Source: Candidatus Nitrotoga sp. AM1P
Lineage (GTDB): Bacteria; Pseudomonadota; Gammaproteobacteria; Burkholderiales; Gallionellaceae
Length of the DNA stretch: 64,000 bases
Reading direction: 5' to 3'
NCBI RefSeq assembly: GCF_013168275.1
Contig: NZ_AP019547.1
Coordinates: forward strand, 1,736,001 to 1,800,000
This document shows, piece by piece, positions 920 through 6,286 of this stretch. Position 1 is the first letter of the stretch; the number at the start of each line of letters is the position of its first letter. Below the pieces are notes generated by a model. The model saw only the letters and a list, made by a program, of their open reading frames with translations, was not told the DNA's origin and did not search any database. A program made the position numbers and the translations under genes.

Positions 920-1561
920 CTATTCCTGCTGATCCAAACGGATGTGATCAATCAGGCGTGTACCAAGGCGCTCCATTTCATCCATTGTTTGGGATTGCAG
1001 ACGAGAAAAATAATTAAATCCAAATAAAGCAATGAGTGCGATTAATAAGCCAACGGCAGTTGCAATAAGTGCCTGCGCCACGCCTCCTGTCACCCCCGTA
1101 GGATTGACGATGCCGCTGCCGCCGATTATTTGGAAGGCATGCATCATTCCAATAATGGTTCCCATCAGCCCGAGCAAAGGCGCCGCGGTAACGATTGTTT
1201 CTAACACCCATAACCGACGTGCGAGGGATGTTTCAATCACCAGAGCTTCATCAGCTGCACGAGATTCAGTCCACCATGAAGGTCGATGCCGGTTGGCGAT
1301 CACCACCTCAAAGAACCGCTTGTAGTAATGACGCTCGTTCAGCCCGGAAAGTATCTTTTCCAGGTCTTCCCATGCGAAACCATAAGTTTCAACAAGATTC
1401 AGTAAGTCATATGAAAGACGTGCAAAACGCCAATAGAGGAATGCCTTCTCCAGCATAATGGCTAAAGCGATTACCCCCAGTAAAGACAATGGCACGATAA
1501 TCATCCCGCCGAGTTTAAATGCGATCCAGGCTTCTTGTAGTTCTTGCATGGTTATCTCCAA
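920..1561 (-). CDS. exbB: ExbB/TolQ-family proton channel protein
   Basis: 213 aa MotA/TolQ/ExbB-family inner-membrane protein. It has an N-terminal helix (about residues 17-37) and two C-terminal helices; the TAAPLLGLMGTIIGM segment (about residue 125) and the GGVAQALIATAVGLL segment (about 155-175) are the family hallmarks. It is the first gene of the exbB-exbD-tonB operon and forms the multimeric channel that uses the proton motive force. A purine-rich stretch (TTTGGAGATAACC) lies just before the ATG. Context with a TonB-like protein favours ExbB over TolQ. Confidence 0.92.
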   Translation of the reverse strand: MEITMQELQEAWIAFKLGGMIIVPLSLLGVIALAIMLEKAFLYWRFARLSYDLLNLVETYGFAWEDLEKILSGLNERHYYKRFFEVVIANRHRPSWWTESRAADEALVIETSLARRLWVLETIVTAAPLLGLMGTIIGMMHAFQIIGGSGIVNPTGVTGGVAQALIATAVGLLIALIALFGFNYFSRLQSQTMDEMERLGTRLIDHIRLDQQE

Positions 1562-2022
1562 ATGAAAGGGATAATCCCCATTTGCTTGTTAAAAAACTTA
1601 TTGATGATTACCAGGAAAATTTTCGTCGTAGTCCAAACTGAGATACATCTGTTCCAATTTTAATTCCCTGAACTTCCTCATTTTACTCAACTTTAGACAT
1701 TCAGCCTTCATCTTTACATCTCCCGAACGATGACACTATTAAAGCTGAAACGATAATAACTCTTGTTACCTGATACTAATGGCTGCACTAGACTCGCAAT
1801 TTTGGGTTACCGTGCTGTTTCGGGAAGGTCAATATCGAAGACTTCTGGTTGAAACCGTCCCTTTAGACAAACCTGTGCCTAGAATTGATCGTGAGTGCTC
1901 AGACAAAGGTGCATCTTGAACTTGATGAGATAAGCAAGATTTAAATCAATCAGGCTTTTCGGTATATCGTAATATTCACGCTTGTGCGTTAGCTTTAACG
2001 GCTCAAAGAATCAATCAGCGTA
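1562..2022. other. Intergenic region upstream of exbB and the hsd scar
   Basis: About 460 bases without a convincing gene. The left part must hold the exbB promoter (minus strand); I see no clear Fur box. Short open frames near 1930-2030 (plus strand) resemble decayed coding sequence but match nothing I can name, and they fit the idea that a restriction locus was eroded here. Confidence 0.4.
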
Positions 2023-2142
2023 ATGGCCAAACTGCCCCAGACAAACTTTGCTCACTTGGAGCAGCACGATAAACAACTATCGCGCTTGGGCATGTTGGCG
2101 GAAAAGTATTTCGCAGAAGATCCCAATACCTGTTTACTCAAA
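2023..2142 (+). pseudogene. 5' remnant of type I restriction subunit hsdR
   Basis: About 40 codons read TNFAHLEQHDKQLSRLGML followed by AEKYFAEDPNTCLLK. This matches, from memory, the N-terminus of proteobacterial type I restriction endonuclease R subunits. Homology stops abruptly at the AAA tract near 2140, where an hsdS 3' end begins in another frame. A full HsdR has over 700 residues, so this is a non-functional stub left by a deletion. Confidence 0.65.
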
Positions 2143-2246
2143 AACTCACCCCGGTCACGCTCGCCAAAGCTTTTCGCGGCAAACTGGTGCCGCAAGACCT
2201 CAAAGACGAACCGGCCAGTGAGTTGTTGGAACGCATCCGCGCGTAA
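2142..2246 (+). pseudogene. 3' remnant of type I specificity subunit hsdS
   Basis: In the frame +1 to the hsdR stub, the sequence reads LTPVTLAKAFRGKLVPQDL then KDEPASELLERIRA and a stop at 2244-2246. AFRGxLVPQDxxDEPAxxLLERIRA is the typical C-terminal tail of HsdS. Only about 34 codons remain. The head-to-tail junction of hsdR 5' with hsdS 3' indicates a deletion that removed hsdM and nearly all of hsdR and hsdS. Confidence 0.7.
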
Positions 2247-2320
2247 CGTAGCGATCAATCCACAAACAACTCAGGCGTGGTAGTAAAATTGCCACGAAAA
2301 TCGAAAATTAAGGAGTTGCT

Positions 2321-3670
2321 ATGTTTACAAAACTCTCATTGAAAAATTTCAAGGCTTGGCGGGATGTCGAGAATGTGGACGAAGCCGGACAATTGCAAAA
2401 AGATAGAATTGAAATTCCTTTGGCTCCGGTAACGATGTTGCTCGGCACTAATTCATCAGGGAAATCATCTCTGCTTCAAGCATTGTTGTTGCTTAAGCAA
2501 ACTGCCGCTTCTCCAGATCGCAGTATTCACCTTAATCTGGGCGGTGATGAAGCCAATGACTACTTCAATTTCGGTCACTTTGACGATGTGTTAAATCGTA
2601 ATGCATCACCTCGGCAGTTTAAAATCGGTTTTCATTTTCAGCGCCCGGATGTGGAATCATCAGCTGAAAAAAACCGTATAGCATCAGGCGAATTCTTAGC
2701 TACTTACAGCAAAACATCGTCGGGTAGTGCCGTAATAGAGGAATTGAGTTTGCGTAGTGGGTCATCCTGCTATCGAGCAATTCGTCGCGAAAAAGGCGCG
2801 TACTCAATAATGGTTGGAGACGAGGCGCAACCGAGAGGTAAGAGCAAAGCATATGCACCTGAACGTTCAATAGCATTGCCGTCAGAGGCGATTCAGTTAC
2901 TTTCGAATGACGGGCCGATGGCGGAGGATATCAGCCTTGCTATTCGCCGAGAGTTGGGAAGTATTGCCTACCTGGGGCCGCTACGCAGAAAACCGGAGCG
3001 CGATTACGTCTGGAATAAAACCAAGCCTGGAGAGTTGGGAATTGATGGAGTAGGTGTGATCAATGCTATTTTTGCAAGCGCTTTGCTGCGATCGAATGGA
3101 GATGATACCGTCAAAATTATTCAGGAAGTGTCCGGCTGGCTAGCTCGCATGGGCCTTGCAGAACGGATTGAAGTAAAGCAATTGGGGCATTCAACACGTT
3201 ATGAAGTTGTAGTTCACAAAGATGGAGTGGTAGCTAACTTGCGTGATGTGGGGATCGGTATTTCTCAAGTATTGCCGGTTCTAACTCTGGCATTTTTTGC
3301 GCCTGCAGGTTCAACCGTGCTGCTGGAAGAACCTGAGATTCATCTTCATCCTCTCGCGCAATCGGTGCTAGCGGAATTATTTGTCGAGGTCAGTCGCGCA
3401 AGGAAAACTCAGTTCATCGTTGAAACCCATTCAGAGCATCTCTTTAGACGTATGCAAACTTTGGTAGCCGAAGAAACCATTACAACAAATGATTGCCGTC
3501 TGTACTTTGTCGGACGCGAGGGCGCCGATGCTAAACTGAAGCCATTGGTACTTGATGATTATGGGCGTGTGACTGAATGGCCGCCCATGTTTTTTGGTGA
3601 CGCGATGGGCGAAACCAGCAAGCAAGCTCGACTGATGTTCGAGCGACAAATGCGGGATTGCAAAACATGA
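2321..3670 (+). CDS. AAA/ABC-type ATPase with DUF3696-like C-terminus
   Basis: 449 aa SMC/OLD-like ATPase. Walker A is GTNSSGKSS (residues 42-50), followed by LLQALLLLKQT. A signature-like GIGISQVLPVLT is followed by Walker B VLLEEPEIHLHP (about 333-344) and the switch histidine in ETHSEHL (about 370). The C-terminal part (DDYGRVTEWPPMFFGDAM) resembles DUF3696, common in defence-island ATPases. The RBS AAGGAG lies 6 bases before the ATG. Its stop overlaps the start of the PIN gene (ATGA), so it is the first gene of a three-gene operon. It probably acts as a sensor or regulator of the nuclease; its target is unknown. Confidence 0.85.
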   Translation: MFTKLSLKNFKAWRDVENVDEAGQLQKDRIEIPLAPVTMLLGTNSSGKSSLLQALLLLKQTAASPDRSIHLNLGGDEANDYFNFGHFDDVLNRNASPRQFKIGFHFQRPDVESSAEKNRIASGEFLATYSKTSSGSAVIEELSLRSGSSCYRAIRREKGAYSIMVGDEAQPRGKSKAYAPERSIALPSEAIQLLSNDGPMAEDISLAIRRELGSIAYLGPLRRKPERDYVWNKTKPGELGIDGVGVINAIFASALLRSNGDDTVKIIQEVSGWLARMGLAERIEVKQLGHSTRYEVVVHKDGVVANLRDVGIGISQVLPVLTLAFFAPAGSTVLLEEPEIHLHPLAQSVLAELFVEVSRARKTQFIVETHSEHLFRRMQTLVAEETITTNDCRLYFVGREGADAKLKPLVLDDYGRVTEWPPMFFGDAMGETSKQARLMFERQMRDCKT

Positions 3671-4194
3671 GAGCACGTTACGTGGTTGACACCAATGTGT
3701 TGATTGCGGCGAGCGCAGTAGACGCCTCTTCTCCCATTGCGCGTGACGCGACTCCAAGTGAGCCCGGCTTAAGGATGAAAGTCTGGCAGTGGCTTTACGA
3801 TTTTCAACTATCTGAAAGCCATCTGATTCTTGACGGCGAGGGCGGGATTGAATTGGAGTACAAAAATAAACTTGGATTTAATGACTATGGCATGCAAGTC
3901 GTGATGCACAAGTGGAACACGTGCGCATTTGATCTAGTGAGCGTTGCTTACGATAGCAACGGTGACGGGGTTTTGAATGAACCTCTGCAAACTATTGTTC
4001 ATGACCGAGCAGACCGAAAAATGGTGGCCGCTGCACTTGATGCTCAGGCAAAGTACGGTGAAAGTGCAATTGCATTTGCCGGAGATACCGATTGGCACGG
4101 ATGGGAGACTGCGCTGAAGGATGCAGAACTAATTTTAGAACCCATTATTGAAGATTGGTCGCGAGCCAAATTTGCTGAGAAAAGCAGAAAATGA
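3667..4194 (+). CDS. PIN-fold ribonuclease-like protein
   Basis: 175 aa. The sequence opens with RARYVVDTNVLIAAS, a classic PIN-domain first strand with catalytic D8. Further acidic positions fit the PIN active site: E62/E64 in IELEYKNKL, D116 in DRADRKMVAAAL and D140/D142 in AFAGDTDW. PIN domains cut RNA with bound metal ions. I chose ATG 3667 over an upstream TTG (3658) because it makes an ATGA overlap with the ATPase stop. The gene's own stop overlaps the ligase start in the same way. No antitoxin gene of the VapB kind is present, so a nuclease effector under ATPase control is more likely than a VapC toxin. Confidence 0.8.
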   Translation: MRARYVVDTNVLIAASAVDASSPIARDATPSEPGLRMKVWQWLYDFQLSESHLILDGEGGIELEYKNKLGFNDYGMQVVMHKWNTCAFDLVSVAYDSNGDGVLNEPLQTIVHDRADRKMVAAALDAQAKYGESAIAFAGDTDWHGWETALKDAELILEPIIEDWSRAKFAEKSRK

Positions 4195-4886
4195 CAGATT
4201 TTTTCAGATTCCCCCACACCCCCCATATTGCCTGGCTCGGTGACGGTACGCCGCGTGATGACAAGGTGCTGGCCGCATTCGAGGCCGAAGCATTCTTGGC
4301 GCACGGCGTAATTCTCGAAGAAAAAGTCGACGGTGCCAATCTGGGATTTTCGGTGGGAAGCGATGGCGAAGTCAGGGCGCAAAACCGGGGGCAATATTTA
4401 CCCCAACCATTCACTGGCCAATTTGTACGCCTGAATGAGTGGCTGGCTATTCACGAAGAAGCCCTATTCGAAGCGCTGGGCGAATCTCTGATGTTGTTCG
4501 GTGAATGGGTGGCCGCTGTGCATAGTCTGGAATATCCCGGTTTGCCGGATTATTTCTTGGTGTTCGATGTGTATGACCGCAATGCTCGTCGTTTCTGGAG
4601 TACAGCACGGCGTAATGCGTTGGCGTCCCAGCTTAGCTTGCGCTCCGTTCATCAGATAGGAATGGGACGTTACCGACTGAGTACGCTCAAGCAAATGATT
4701 GCCACGACTCCAAGCGCCTATCGAAAGGGCGAGTGCGAGGGAATCTATCTCAGACATGAAGACAAAGACTGGCTAATCGCCCGCGCCAAATTGGTTCACC
4801 CCGATTTCACGCAAAGCATTGGCGAGCATTGGCGTTCGCGTTCACTGCGTTGGAACTCGCTAGCAGTTGGCTTTGAATCTTATTAG
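4191..4886 (+). CDS. RNA ligase family protein (Rnl2-like nucleotidyltransferase)
   Basis: 231 aa. Motif I is EEKVDGANLG with the AMP-accepting lysine K45. Motif III lies around 121-129 (YFLVFDVYD), motif IV is EGIYLRHE (183-190) and motif V is ARAKLV (197-202). These are the covalent nucleotidyltransferase motifs of T4 Rnl2-like RNA ligases, which seal 3'-OH/5'-phosphate RNA ends using ATP. The length fits the compact bacterial RNA_ligase family. Translation is coupled to the PIN gene by an ATGA overlap. Pairing a predicted RNase with a ligase suggests cleavage and repair of a specific RNA; this is inference. Confidence 0.85.
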   Translation: MTDFFRFPHTPHIAWLGDGTPRDDKVLAAFEAEAFLAHGVILEEKVDGANLGFSVGSDGEVRAQNRGQYLPQPFTGQFVRLNEWLAIHEEALFEALGESLMLFGEWVAAVHSLEYPGLPDYFLVFDVYDRNARRFWSTARRNALASQLSLRSVHQIGMGRYRLSTLKQMIATTPSAYRKGECEGIYLRHEDKDWLIARAKLVHPDFTQSIGEHWRSRSLRWNSLAVGFESY

Positions 4887-4994
4887 GAGTTCTTATAAAC
4901 CTTGAGTTTCTAATCTCGTTTTTATGACAGATGACGGCATTTAATTAGATTGGTCTTTAAAATTGTGGAGACTATCCAAAAGGGGCGAGCGATC

Positions 4995-5564
4995 ATGAGC
5001 AAAGCTTTTACCAAGGAAACGGACGAAAGTCCTGACGAAGAAGAGGGTCAGCCGGTATCTCCCCTCCCGCCCGGAGTCAAAAACTACATCACCCCCATTG
5101 GTTACCAGCGTATGAAAGATGAGCTTGATCAGCTATGGAAAGTGGAACGTCCGGTATTGGTGCAAACTATTACTTGGGCCGCTTCCAACGGCGATCGCTC
5201 GGAAAATGGGGATTATATTTATGGCAAGAAGCGCCTGCGTGAAATCGATCGGCGCATCCGCTTTCTTTCCAAGCGTCTGGAAAACGCCGCAGTGGTGGAT
5301 CCGGTGCAGCGAGAATCGTGTGATCAAGTATTCTTTGGGGCGACAGTCACAGTGTGCCGGCAGGATGGCGCAGAGCACATCTACAGCATAGTCGGCGTGG
5401 ATGAAGCGGATGCCGGGCGCGGATTGATTAGCTGGGTATCACCGCTCGCTCGAGCACTGCTAAAGACGCGCGCCGATGATGTGGTTATGCTGCACATCCC
5501 CGGCGGGATAGAAGAGCTGGTGGTGGTGGGCGTTGCTTATCGGGCGATACGTTTTGACGATTGA
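4995..5564 (+). CDS. greB: Transcript cleavage factor GreB
   Basis: 189 aa. It binds RNA polymerase through its secondary channel and stimulates cleavage of backtracked transcripts. The N-terminal coiled coil carries the acidic tip (NGDRSENGDYIYGKKRLREIDRR), followed by the C-terminal FKBP-like domain with GRGLISWVSPLARALL. The start at ATG 4995 follows AGGGGCGAGC; an upstream in-frame TTG at 4950 has no RBS. An acidic N-terminal extension of about 30 residues (DESPDEEEGQPV) precedes the conserved ITPIGYQRMKDEL. It is preceded by 108 bases without features, so it is probably not part of the ligase operon. Confidence 0.93.
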   Translation: MSKAFTKETDESPDEEEGQPVSPLPPGVKNYITPIGYQRMKDELDQLWKVERPVLVQTITWAASNGDRSENGDYIYGKKRLREIDRRIRFLSKRLENAAVVDPVQRESCDQVFFGATVTVCRQDGAEHIYSIVGVDEADAGRGLISWVSPLARALLKTRADDVVMLHIPGGIEELVVVGVAYRAIRFDD

Positions 5565-5644
5565 GTTGTGGTAAAAACGCGAGCTTTGAATATATCACTT
5601 TAAACTTTAACAGCAGCGTTCCTCGTTCCACCCGCCCGTTCGGA

Positions 5645-6286
5645 TTAGCCAAGAGTAGGAAATAAGCCACGTATTCCACCCGCAATGAACTCTACGGAAA
5701 TGGCCGCGAGTACCAAGCCCATTAACCGAGTAAATACGTCAATGCCTATCTTGCCCAAACGTTGCGCCACCCACGGTGCAATCAGGAAGGCTAACCAGAC
5801 CGTTACGCTTAGCAACATAATTTCCAAGCTCATGATTAAATAATGCTCAATGCCGTGCGCCTTGTGTGCCTCCAGAATCACCGCGCTAATGGAGCCGGGC
5901 CCTGCCAGCAGTGGAATGGATAACGGCACGATGGCATGTATCGAGCTTGTTTCGCCCCCAGCACCGTCATTATCGGCTTCGATGGAGGTGTAGAGGTTAC
6001 CATTCAACATTCTGAAGGCCATTAACATCAGTAGAATGCCGCCCGCCACGCGAAATGAACTGATGCTGATACCAAAAAAAACCAGTAGTGGCTGACCTAT
6101 CAATAACGCAACCAGCAAAATGACGCATACCGCCAGTGATGCGACGCGGCCAACCTTGGCTCGTTTTGGTGCCGTCATGCCGGAGGTGAACAGAATGATG
6201 ATGGGGATGATCCCGATCGGATCAAGGATGGCGAACAGACTGATAAAAATCTTGGTGTATTCGGTGAAATCCAGCATGGCGCTCAA
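5645..6286 (-). CDS. MarC family integral membrane protein
   Basis: 213 aa with about six hydrophobic helices. It begins FISLFAILDPIGIIPIIILFTSGM, the typical first helix of MarC/YhgN/UPF0056 proteins, and FRVAGGILLMLMAFRML is the second signature. The name comes from the mar locus, but the family is not proven to act in multidrug resistance; the transport function is unknown. It is convergent with greB and downstream of the rsmB-like gene on the same strand. Confidence 0.88.
   Translation of the reverse strand: MSAMLDFTEYTKIFISLFAILDPIGIIPIIILFTSGMTAPKRAKVGRVASLAVCVILLVALLIGQPLLVFFGISISSFRVAGGILLMLMAFRMLNGNLYTSIEADNDGAGGETSSIHAIVPLSIPLLAGPGSISAVILEAHKAHGIEHYLIMSLEIMLLSVTVWLAFLIAPWVAQRLGKIGIDVFTRLMGLVLAAISVEFIAGGIRGLFPTLG

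Follow-up and report, generated by a model that had tools for sequence, protein, structure and literature searches.

A three-gene ATPase, PIN-fold nuclease and RNA ligase operon in Candidatus Nitrotoga sp. AM1P as a candidate cut-and-seal variant of an HEC-03-like pair

Introduction

Among described systems, the closest relative of the locus examined here is HEC-03 of the PADLOC collection, a candidate defence pair whose two profile names point to two genes. Here, we have analyzed a 64 000-nucleotide stretch of the genome of Candidatus Nitrotoga sp. AM1P (contig NZ_AP019547.1, positions 1 736 001 to 1 800 000; hereafter the window) and describe an operon at positions 2321–4886 that encodes an ATPase, a PIN-fold nuclease and an Rnl2-like RNA ligase (hereafter the trio). 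As in HEC-03, the gene for the ATPase, whose best match was HEC-03B, adjoins that for a PIN protein with a weak match to HEC-03A; the difference lies in a third gene, for an RNA ligase, which overlaps the PIN gene. What seems new in the literature searched is this RNA ligase as third gene, the ATPase and the PIN protein belonging or being related to a catalogued candidate pair. We put at about an even chance the reading that the trio is a three-gene variant of an HEC-03-kind candidate defence system, with a PIN RNase that nicks RNA under the control of the ATPase and an Rnl2-like ligase that closes the nick again.

Several other systems share part of this arrangement. The window ATPase also matched NsnB (192 bits), which we take to be a component of Menshen (NsnABC). 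The PIN-fold RNase recalls VapBC modules, but no small antitoxin gene was found beside the window PIN gene. Its neighbours instead encode an ATPase of 449 aa and a ligase of 231 aa, the latter an enzyme that could mend what the PIN protein cuts. The window ligase differs from T4 Rnl2 and the Naegleria ligase in being a single-domain protein without the Rnl2 C-terminal domain. RtcB has a fold different from that of Rnl2-like ligases. The RtcB2-PrfH and RtcBA operons likewise contain an RNA ligase that counters RNA damage (PMC9223846, PMC5175333), but RtcB is another kind of ligase joining other ends (PMC11090510), and the operons as described in these sources carry no nuclease. Menshen, as described in PMC10952713, has a DUF262 gene together with a predicted OLD nuclease, whereas Pfam found no DUF262 in the trio proteins and the flanking genes are ExbB-like and GreB-like, hence no DUF262 partner gene lies alongside. 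In the contest between PrrC and T4 Pnk/Rnl1, tRNA cutting is also opposed by a ligase (PMC12409363), but there the kinase and the ligase belong to the phage, whereas here nuclease and ligase are encoded in one bacterial operon. Finally, the Toprim or HNH nuclease domains or partners of OLD, Gabija and Septu were not found by Pfam in the three proteins, and only the ATPase matched these systems (37–40 bits). No published description of the trio, or of the ligase as third gene, was found in a search that did not cover likely sources on RNA repair systems and on conflict-system ABC ATPases.

Results and discussion

Organization and family assignment of the operon

All three genes lie on the plus strand. 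The ATPase gene (2321..3670; 449 aa; AAA_15/AAA_21 and DUF3696 domains by Pfam), whose product is the predicted sensor or regulator, is preceded by a Shine-Dalgarno-like AAGGAG (2310..2315, plus strand) read from the sequence, and is followed by the genes for the PIN-fold nuclease (3667..4194; 175 aa) and the ATP-dependent RNA ligase (4191..4886; 231 aa, a nucleotidyltransferase domain only, with an Rnl2/Naegleria ligase fold). An ATGA overlap joins the stop of the ATPase gene to the start of the PIN gene (3667..3670, plus strand) and another the stop of the PIN gene to the start of the ligase gene (4191..4194, plus strand), so that the three-gene anatomy proposed from the letters alone was borne out in its coordinates and in both overlaps. 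The GC content of the trio (49.0%) makes its composition unremarkable in the window (48.1%). No Rfam family matched positions 1500–5700 at gathering score, and a promoter and terminator scan gave matches no more numerous than in shuffled sequence.

The ATPase matched the PADLOC profile HEC-03B with 294.7 bits (residues 1–445 on profile positions 1–454 of 458), the best score among PADLOC models, followed by NsnB (191.6 bits) and PDC-M55A (184.6 bits); AriA, presumably the ATPase of PARIS, scored 98 bits, GajA 40 bits, PtuA 38 bits and Old 37 bits. Septu, Gabija and OLD, the systems named in the sequence-only reading, thus turned out to be more distant than HEC-03 and even AriA. The PIN protein matched HEC-03A weakly (23.2 bits, E 1.5e-5), and the window genome was not recovered by this profile in a six-frame search at E⩽1e-3; the corresponding scores in relatives L071–L073 were 66–73 bits (L and G numbers denote our loci and genomes). 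Judged by profile similarity, the ATPase and the PIN protein are relatives of HEC-03B and HEC-03A, the latter distant. The RNA ligase was unmatched by any PADLOC model. The earlier statement that no named system has this trio therefore stands for the trio, for which none was found, and for the ligase, and gives way for the ATPase and the PIN protein, which relate to HEC-03. Several HEC systems, among them HEC-06 by name, have antiviral activity (PMC12988326), the consulted part of this source not naming HEC-03.

As a separate observation, 17 of the 77 aligned ATPase rows (14 from trio and 3 from ligase-less loci; for example, L140:7965–9347) naturally have glutamine in place of the second Walker B glutamate (E337 in the window). 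Such a change slows hydrolysis in other ABC-type ATPases.

Recurrence of the trio in other genomes

On the basis of the PIN protein alone (alignment A1), 71 loci were gathered from public genomes, with one genome per species. The trio was present, in the order seen in the window, in 45 of them; another 14 had PIN and ligase genes without the ATPase gene, 3 had ATPase and PIN genes beside an RNA ligase from a different subfamily, 5 were ligase-less and 4 were cut by contig ends (L044, L046, L049 and L070). Split frames were left as found (ATPase in L005 and L049, ligase in L062). All 44 scored trio loci had the order ATPase-PIN-ligase on a single strand, and 32 of them also the 4-base overlap between the ATPase and PIN genes; the forty-fifth, L071, was too divergent to be included in this scoring. 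Trios were found in Pseudomonadota, Cyanobacteriota, Acidobacteriota, Verrucomicrobiota and Bacteroidota, and the expectation that the three genes would keep company in the same order in unrelated genomes was confirmed across these five phyla. The ligases of the other subfamily (upstream and inverted in L026 and L035, downstream in L048; 79–84 Pfam bits, about 22–28% identity) were the strongest PF09414 matches in their own genomes, and their presence beside three ATPase-PIN loci suggests that such loci gained an RNA ligase on more than one occasion.

Two further samples were picked by the HEC-03A profile alone, one of 299 genomes of the phylum and one of 247 genomes from the phylum to which G398 belongs; G000 and G398 (centre, chosen for having the trio) were excluded from the sampled ratios. 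HEC-03A was found in 13 genomes of the first sample, with the ligase adjoining in 10, and in 6 of the second, 5 of them with a ligase, or 4 out of 5 once G398 was set aside (246 genomes). When both samples were pooled, the ligase adjoined 14 of 18 HEC-03A matches. With the ligase missing in 5 of 71 loci and in 4 of 18 sampled matches, it is a usual but dispensable partner of HEC-03-like pairs. In the reverse direction, the ligase alignment A2 gave matches in 18 of 299 genomes; 11 strong matches (E<1e-40) lay outside its own genome, and the PIN gene adjoined 10 of them, the eleventh (G003) being partial.

With respect to mobile elements, no PIN match was found among 72 556 plasmid records, and the 33 pattern matches of alignment A1 in the viral collection were none of them confirmed. 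A ligase search of the same collection gave 11 loci, of which only L073 also had the ATPase and PIN genes; in the other ten (27–36% match) the ligase alone was seen. L073 is an IMG/VR viral contig on which all three genes are present, in the form of the second subfamily (L073:2909–5501; ATPase 2909–4300, PIN 4300–4812, ligase 4809–5501) and adjoin a DUF4145 gene. Ligase matches were also present in 135 phage records (127 of them Staphylococcus phages), the 15 matches listed being at 25–28% identity. All phage matches were below 60% identity and gave no hint that the ligase had come from a phage recently.

Predicted folds and active sites

The folds of the PIN protein and the ligase were predicted with high confidence, and alignment counts showed that their catalytic residues were near-invariant and kept in all locus classes. 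A Foldseek search with the PIN model gave no match at E⩽0.001 (PRORP, VapC and a PIN protein ranked first), after which the fold assignment was settled by VIA-align; a search of PDB sequences with the PIN profile returned unrelated chains only (E⩾0.07). Predicted fold and residues together are those of a VapBC-type PIN-fold RNase, which agrees with the acidic active site previously picked out by eye.

The ligase profile had weak matches among PDB sequences to archaeal, Aquifex and Naegleria ligases, and the protein was 12–18% identical to T4 RNA ligase 2 and Naegleria RNA ligase in structural alignments. It has the KxDG nucleotidyltransferase motif of Rnl2-type ligases, with which the predicted fold agrees. 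Over 88 rows, viral and solitary ligases included, K45, D47 and G48 were present in 86, E105 and D126 in 85, and E183 and K200 in 84, the remaining rows being gaps or masked. It should be noted that alignment A6 excludes the rows L071 and L087 of alignment A5, which have masked residues.

The PIN-ligase couple and differing ATPase-PIN cassettes

The PIN and ligase genes stood without an ATPase gene in 14 of the 71 loci, in keeping with the earlier suggestion that nuclease and ligase form a unit. Thirteen of these pairs, all from Gammaproteobacteria, occupied two places in the PIN tree: 10 lay beside hrpB (L053, L056, L057, L060 and L062–L067; HrpB_C domain in L053, with a homologue adjoining the pair in 10 of 10) and 3 beside another common gene (L050–L052). 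No HEC-03B-like ATPase was found in the genomes of these 13 pairs (best score 20 bits). The fourteenth, L072, belongs to the other PIN subfamily, is labelled 'unknown' in the PIN tree and has no ATPase gene at the locus, the genome search having covered the 13 others. In L056, one of the loci at the hrpB site, yicC and RNase PH genes flank the pair on the side away from hrpB. L064 is labelled as a Klebsiella pneumoniae metagenome-assembled genome, and its gene order and PIN protein group with uncultured Gammaproteobacteria, so that the label looks wrong.

Distances between PIN proteins and between ligases were correlated over 45 rows (r=0.72, against at most 0.25 in 1000 shuffles), partly because of shared ancestry, and remained so when the ATPase-less pairs were added (r=0.64, 58 rows). 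The correlation was 0.36 between ATPase and PIN distances and 0.37 between ATPase and ligase distances (45 rows each). In our reading, PIN and ligase make up the core of the module, which the ATPase usually controls.

Close relatives of the window ligase stand beside different ATPase-PIN cassettes. Compared with L140, at the same site in the same genus, identity was 37% for the ATPase, 26% for the PIN protein and 76% for the ligase; compared with L157, from another genus of the same family, it was 37%, 27% and 89%, respectively. DNA identity with both divergent trios jumped at the ligase start, within the second ATGA overlap, from mostly 30–60% to mostly 65–95%, and blastn alignment with L140 restarted at position 4190. 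At the DNA level, the ligase gene was 77% identical to that of L140 and the flanks 91–94%, and this greater divergence of the ligase makes independent arrival of the two trios as likely as an exchange in place. Under either scenario, these comparisons indicate that the ATPase-PIN pair and the ligase have recombined as separate units.

A variable site beside greB

The trio lies in a variable site between two context genes that stand outside the system: an exbB-like gene at the left edge (920..1561, minus strand; MotA_ExbB, 93 bits), which was also present in the G324 and G362 stretches (protein identity 98–99%), and a greB-like gene at the right edge (4995..5564, plus strand; GreA_GreB domains), a copy of which at at least 73% identity was found in 18 of 19 genus genomes, the nineteenth having only a 39% paralogue. 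Upstream of the ATPase gene is a type I restriction-modification remnant (1945..2246, plus strand), in which the 5' end of hsdR (1945–2142) is fused to the 3' end of hsdS (2140–2246) by a deletion at about 2140–2142. It matched L142 by blastn at 88.1% over 1945–2142 (hsdR) and 86.9% over 2140–2238 (hsdS), and by tblastn at 83% (HsdR N-terminus) and 74% (HsdS C-terminus), the L142 genes being identified by Pfam. The restriction-modification scar reported by the sequence-only reading is thus a deletion fusion, and restriction genes or their remnants recur at the site in relatives. G324 (L140), of the same genus, has a different trio between exbB and greB, as well as an hsdR fragment (60%, E 6e-8) and faint similarity to hsdS (E 0.056). 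In G341 (L142), HsdR, HsdM and HsdS genes lie left of greB, the fetched stretch stopping short of exbB. In G362 (L143), a shortened HsdM-like gene lies between exbB and greB along with further genes; the window aligned with this genome over 1–2035 and from 4935 onward, and the intervening content differs. An hsdS end also lies upstream of the trio in L157 (65%, E 8e-23), and in L002 and L003, the nearest PIN relatives, the ATPase gene immediately follows an HsdS gene, which is preceded in L002 by a PDC-S02 nuclease.

Counting its own genome, the ligase was present in 2 of the 19 genomes of the genus and in 4 of the 100 of the family, one of these four having a partial copy. This patchiness and the restriction genes at the site mark the trio as an accessory element in restriction-rich surroundings, which supports a role in defence without proving it. 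In G346, a lone ligase frame of 163 aa (L158:8207–8698), for which no PIN or ATPase was detected, is probably a decaying trio remnant.

The idea that the trio lies near known defence genes was only partly sustained: hsdS in L002 and L003 and the prokaryotic Argonaute (pAgo) in L013 speak for it, and the neighbour census described below shows no frequent defence family. In L013:3515–6660, a REase-PNTD protein and then pAgo lie directly upstream of the trio, and L015:3794–6660 shows the same gene layout, two census members matching each family. In L004:3333–6543, the trio comes after genes for a PAS histidine kinase and a GAF sigma-54 activator (RtcR-like PADLOC match, 378 bits), possibly its regulator. 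The census covered 124 proteins beside trio or ATPase-PIN loci (126 of 171 neighbours, two RNA ligases being removed by hand), for loci through L039 and with no background control, and is weak evidence either way. Catalase and DUF3422 were its commonest Pfam families (6 members each). The Nitrosomonas loci L010, L011, L014, L016 and L017 resemble each other in layout and may share one insertion site, presumably with the catalase and DUF3422 genes beside it.

Proposed mechanism and alternative explanations

We suggest that the DUF3696-type ATPase would restrain the PIN RNase and free or activate it upon sensing infection or a related stress. The PIN protein would then nick a structured host RNA, most likely tRNA, leaving 5'-phosphate/3'-hydroxyl ends, and this nicking would halt translation and phage growth. 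The Rnl2-like ligase would rejoin the PIN-made ends with no help from an end-healing enzyme, mop up leaky cleavage in resting cells and let survivors recover; the module would be a cut-and-seal switch, not a one-way suicide device. Two-metal PIN nucleases leave 5'-phosphate/3'-hydroxyl ends, and Rnl2-type ligases join such ends, so that an end-healing gene would be unneeded. RNA as the PIN target is suggested by the predicted fold and the family, and the infection trigger, the anti-phage effect and the ligase as a safety valve would follow from the same picture. The choice of tRNA is a guess by analogy with VapC precedents (PMC5175333, PMC12409363). Of the parts of this reading, a defence function of the operon is probable, and cut-and-seal action of PIN and ligase on RNA is slightly favoured.

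Several results weigh against this reading. First, the ligase is not always there: the ligase-less loci L006, L031, L054, L058 and L069 had no PF09414 match anywhere in their genomes, no ligase was found within a stretch of ∼3.5 kb at L084, L085, L095 and L173 (4 of the 18 sampled HEC-03A matches), and L084 and L085 are the strongest HEC-03A members in the samples (251 and 174 bits). Conversely, 6 of the 17 ligase matches outside its own genome, namely the weaker ones, had no PIN gene in the examined stretch. Second, closely related ligases beside PIN proteins only 26–27% identical are at odds with a strong co-divergence of PIN and ligase, and the nucleotidyltransferase domain spans the whole 231-aa ligase, with the Rnl2 C-terminal domain absent. 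Third, no PADLOC family occurred in more than 3 of the 124 census proteins (HNH 3; pAgo, PDC-S02, PDC-S18 and HsdS 2 each). Finally, the 13 ATPase-less pairs seem to have been passed on vertically at two stable chromosomal positions, a pattern closer to that of housekeeping genes than to that of defence genes.

A more specific version of the cut-and-seal reading is a reversible immune switch, in which a dedicated ligase would mend exactly the nick made by the ATPase-gated PIN protein in an essential RNA, so that the cell could enter and leave dormancy; the ATPase-PIN cassette would be swapped under arms-race pressure while the ligase group persists, and the PIN-ligase pair alone would be a toxin-antitoxin module with a target-repairing antitoxin. 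We advance it tentatively, as somewhat less likely than its negation.

The 13 ATPase-less pairs, at two stable positions and in genomes that lack the ATPase, also argue for a non-immune role in RNA processing or maintenance, in which PIN and ligase would carry out a programmed cut-and-join reaction (splicing, circularization or host RNA repair) with the ATPase as an optional regulator. The yicC and RNase PH genes near the L056 pair, both for RNA enzymes, and the name 'ATP-dependent RNA circularization protein' given by JGI to several relatives point the same way. However, the patchy distribution elsewhere, the variable site rich in restriction genes, the ATPase family common to candidate defence systems, and hsdS or pAgo adjoining in some relatives make this explanation unlikely.

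Still less likely is that the ligase acts as a shield, the PIN protein hitting invader RNA while the ligase separately repairs host RNAs broken by the RNases of phages or rivals. Many known anticodon nucleases leave ends that require end healing. The 25 neighbour families listed, out of 115, included no end-healing gene, and strong members of the ligase family almost always lay beside this PIN gene, which both speak against a shield, whereas phage and cellular RNA ligases that undo host or toxin RNases provide its precedents (PMC7824862, PMC12409363, PMC9223846). We consider improbable a DNA-directed system in which the PIN protein nicks DNA and the ligase seals it. Least credible of all is an HEC-03 pair with a chance passenger ligase: the ligase is indeed unmatched by PADLOC models and some pairs lack it, but it lay beside 14 of the 18 sampled HEC-03A matches, another ligase subfamily stands beside three pairs, and PIN-ligase pairs exist without the ATPase.

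Conclusions

With regard to annotation, the two-gene tool model of HEC-03 seems to miss a frequent third gene. With this operon, it could also be tested directly whether target repair can serve as the mode of action of an antitoxin. To our knowledge, defences that cut RNA are generally regarded as one-way, and the repair of cut RNA is mostly credited to phage. A cutter and a sealer encoded in one recurrent bacterial operon would, if the proposed reading is true, represent immunity with a built-in undo.

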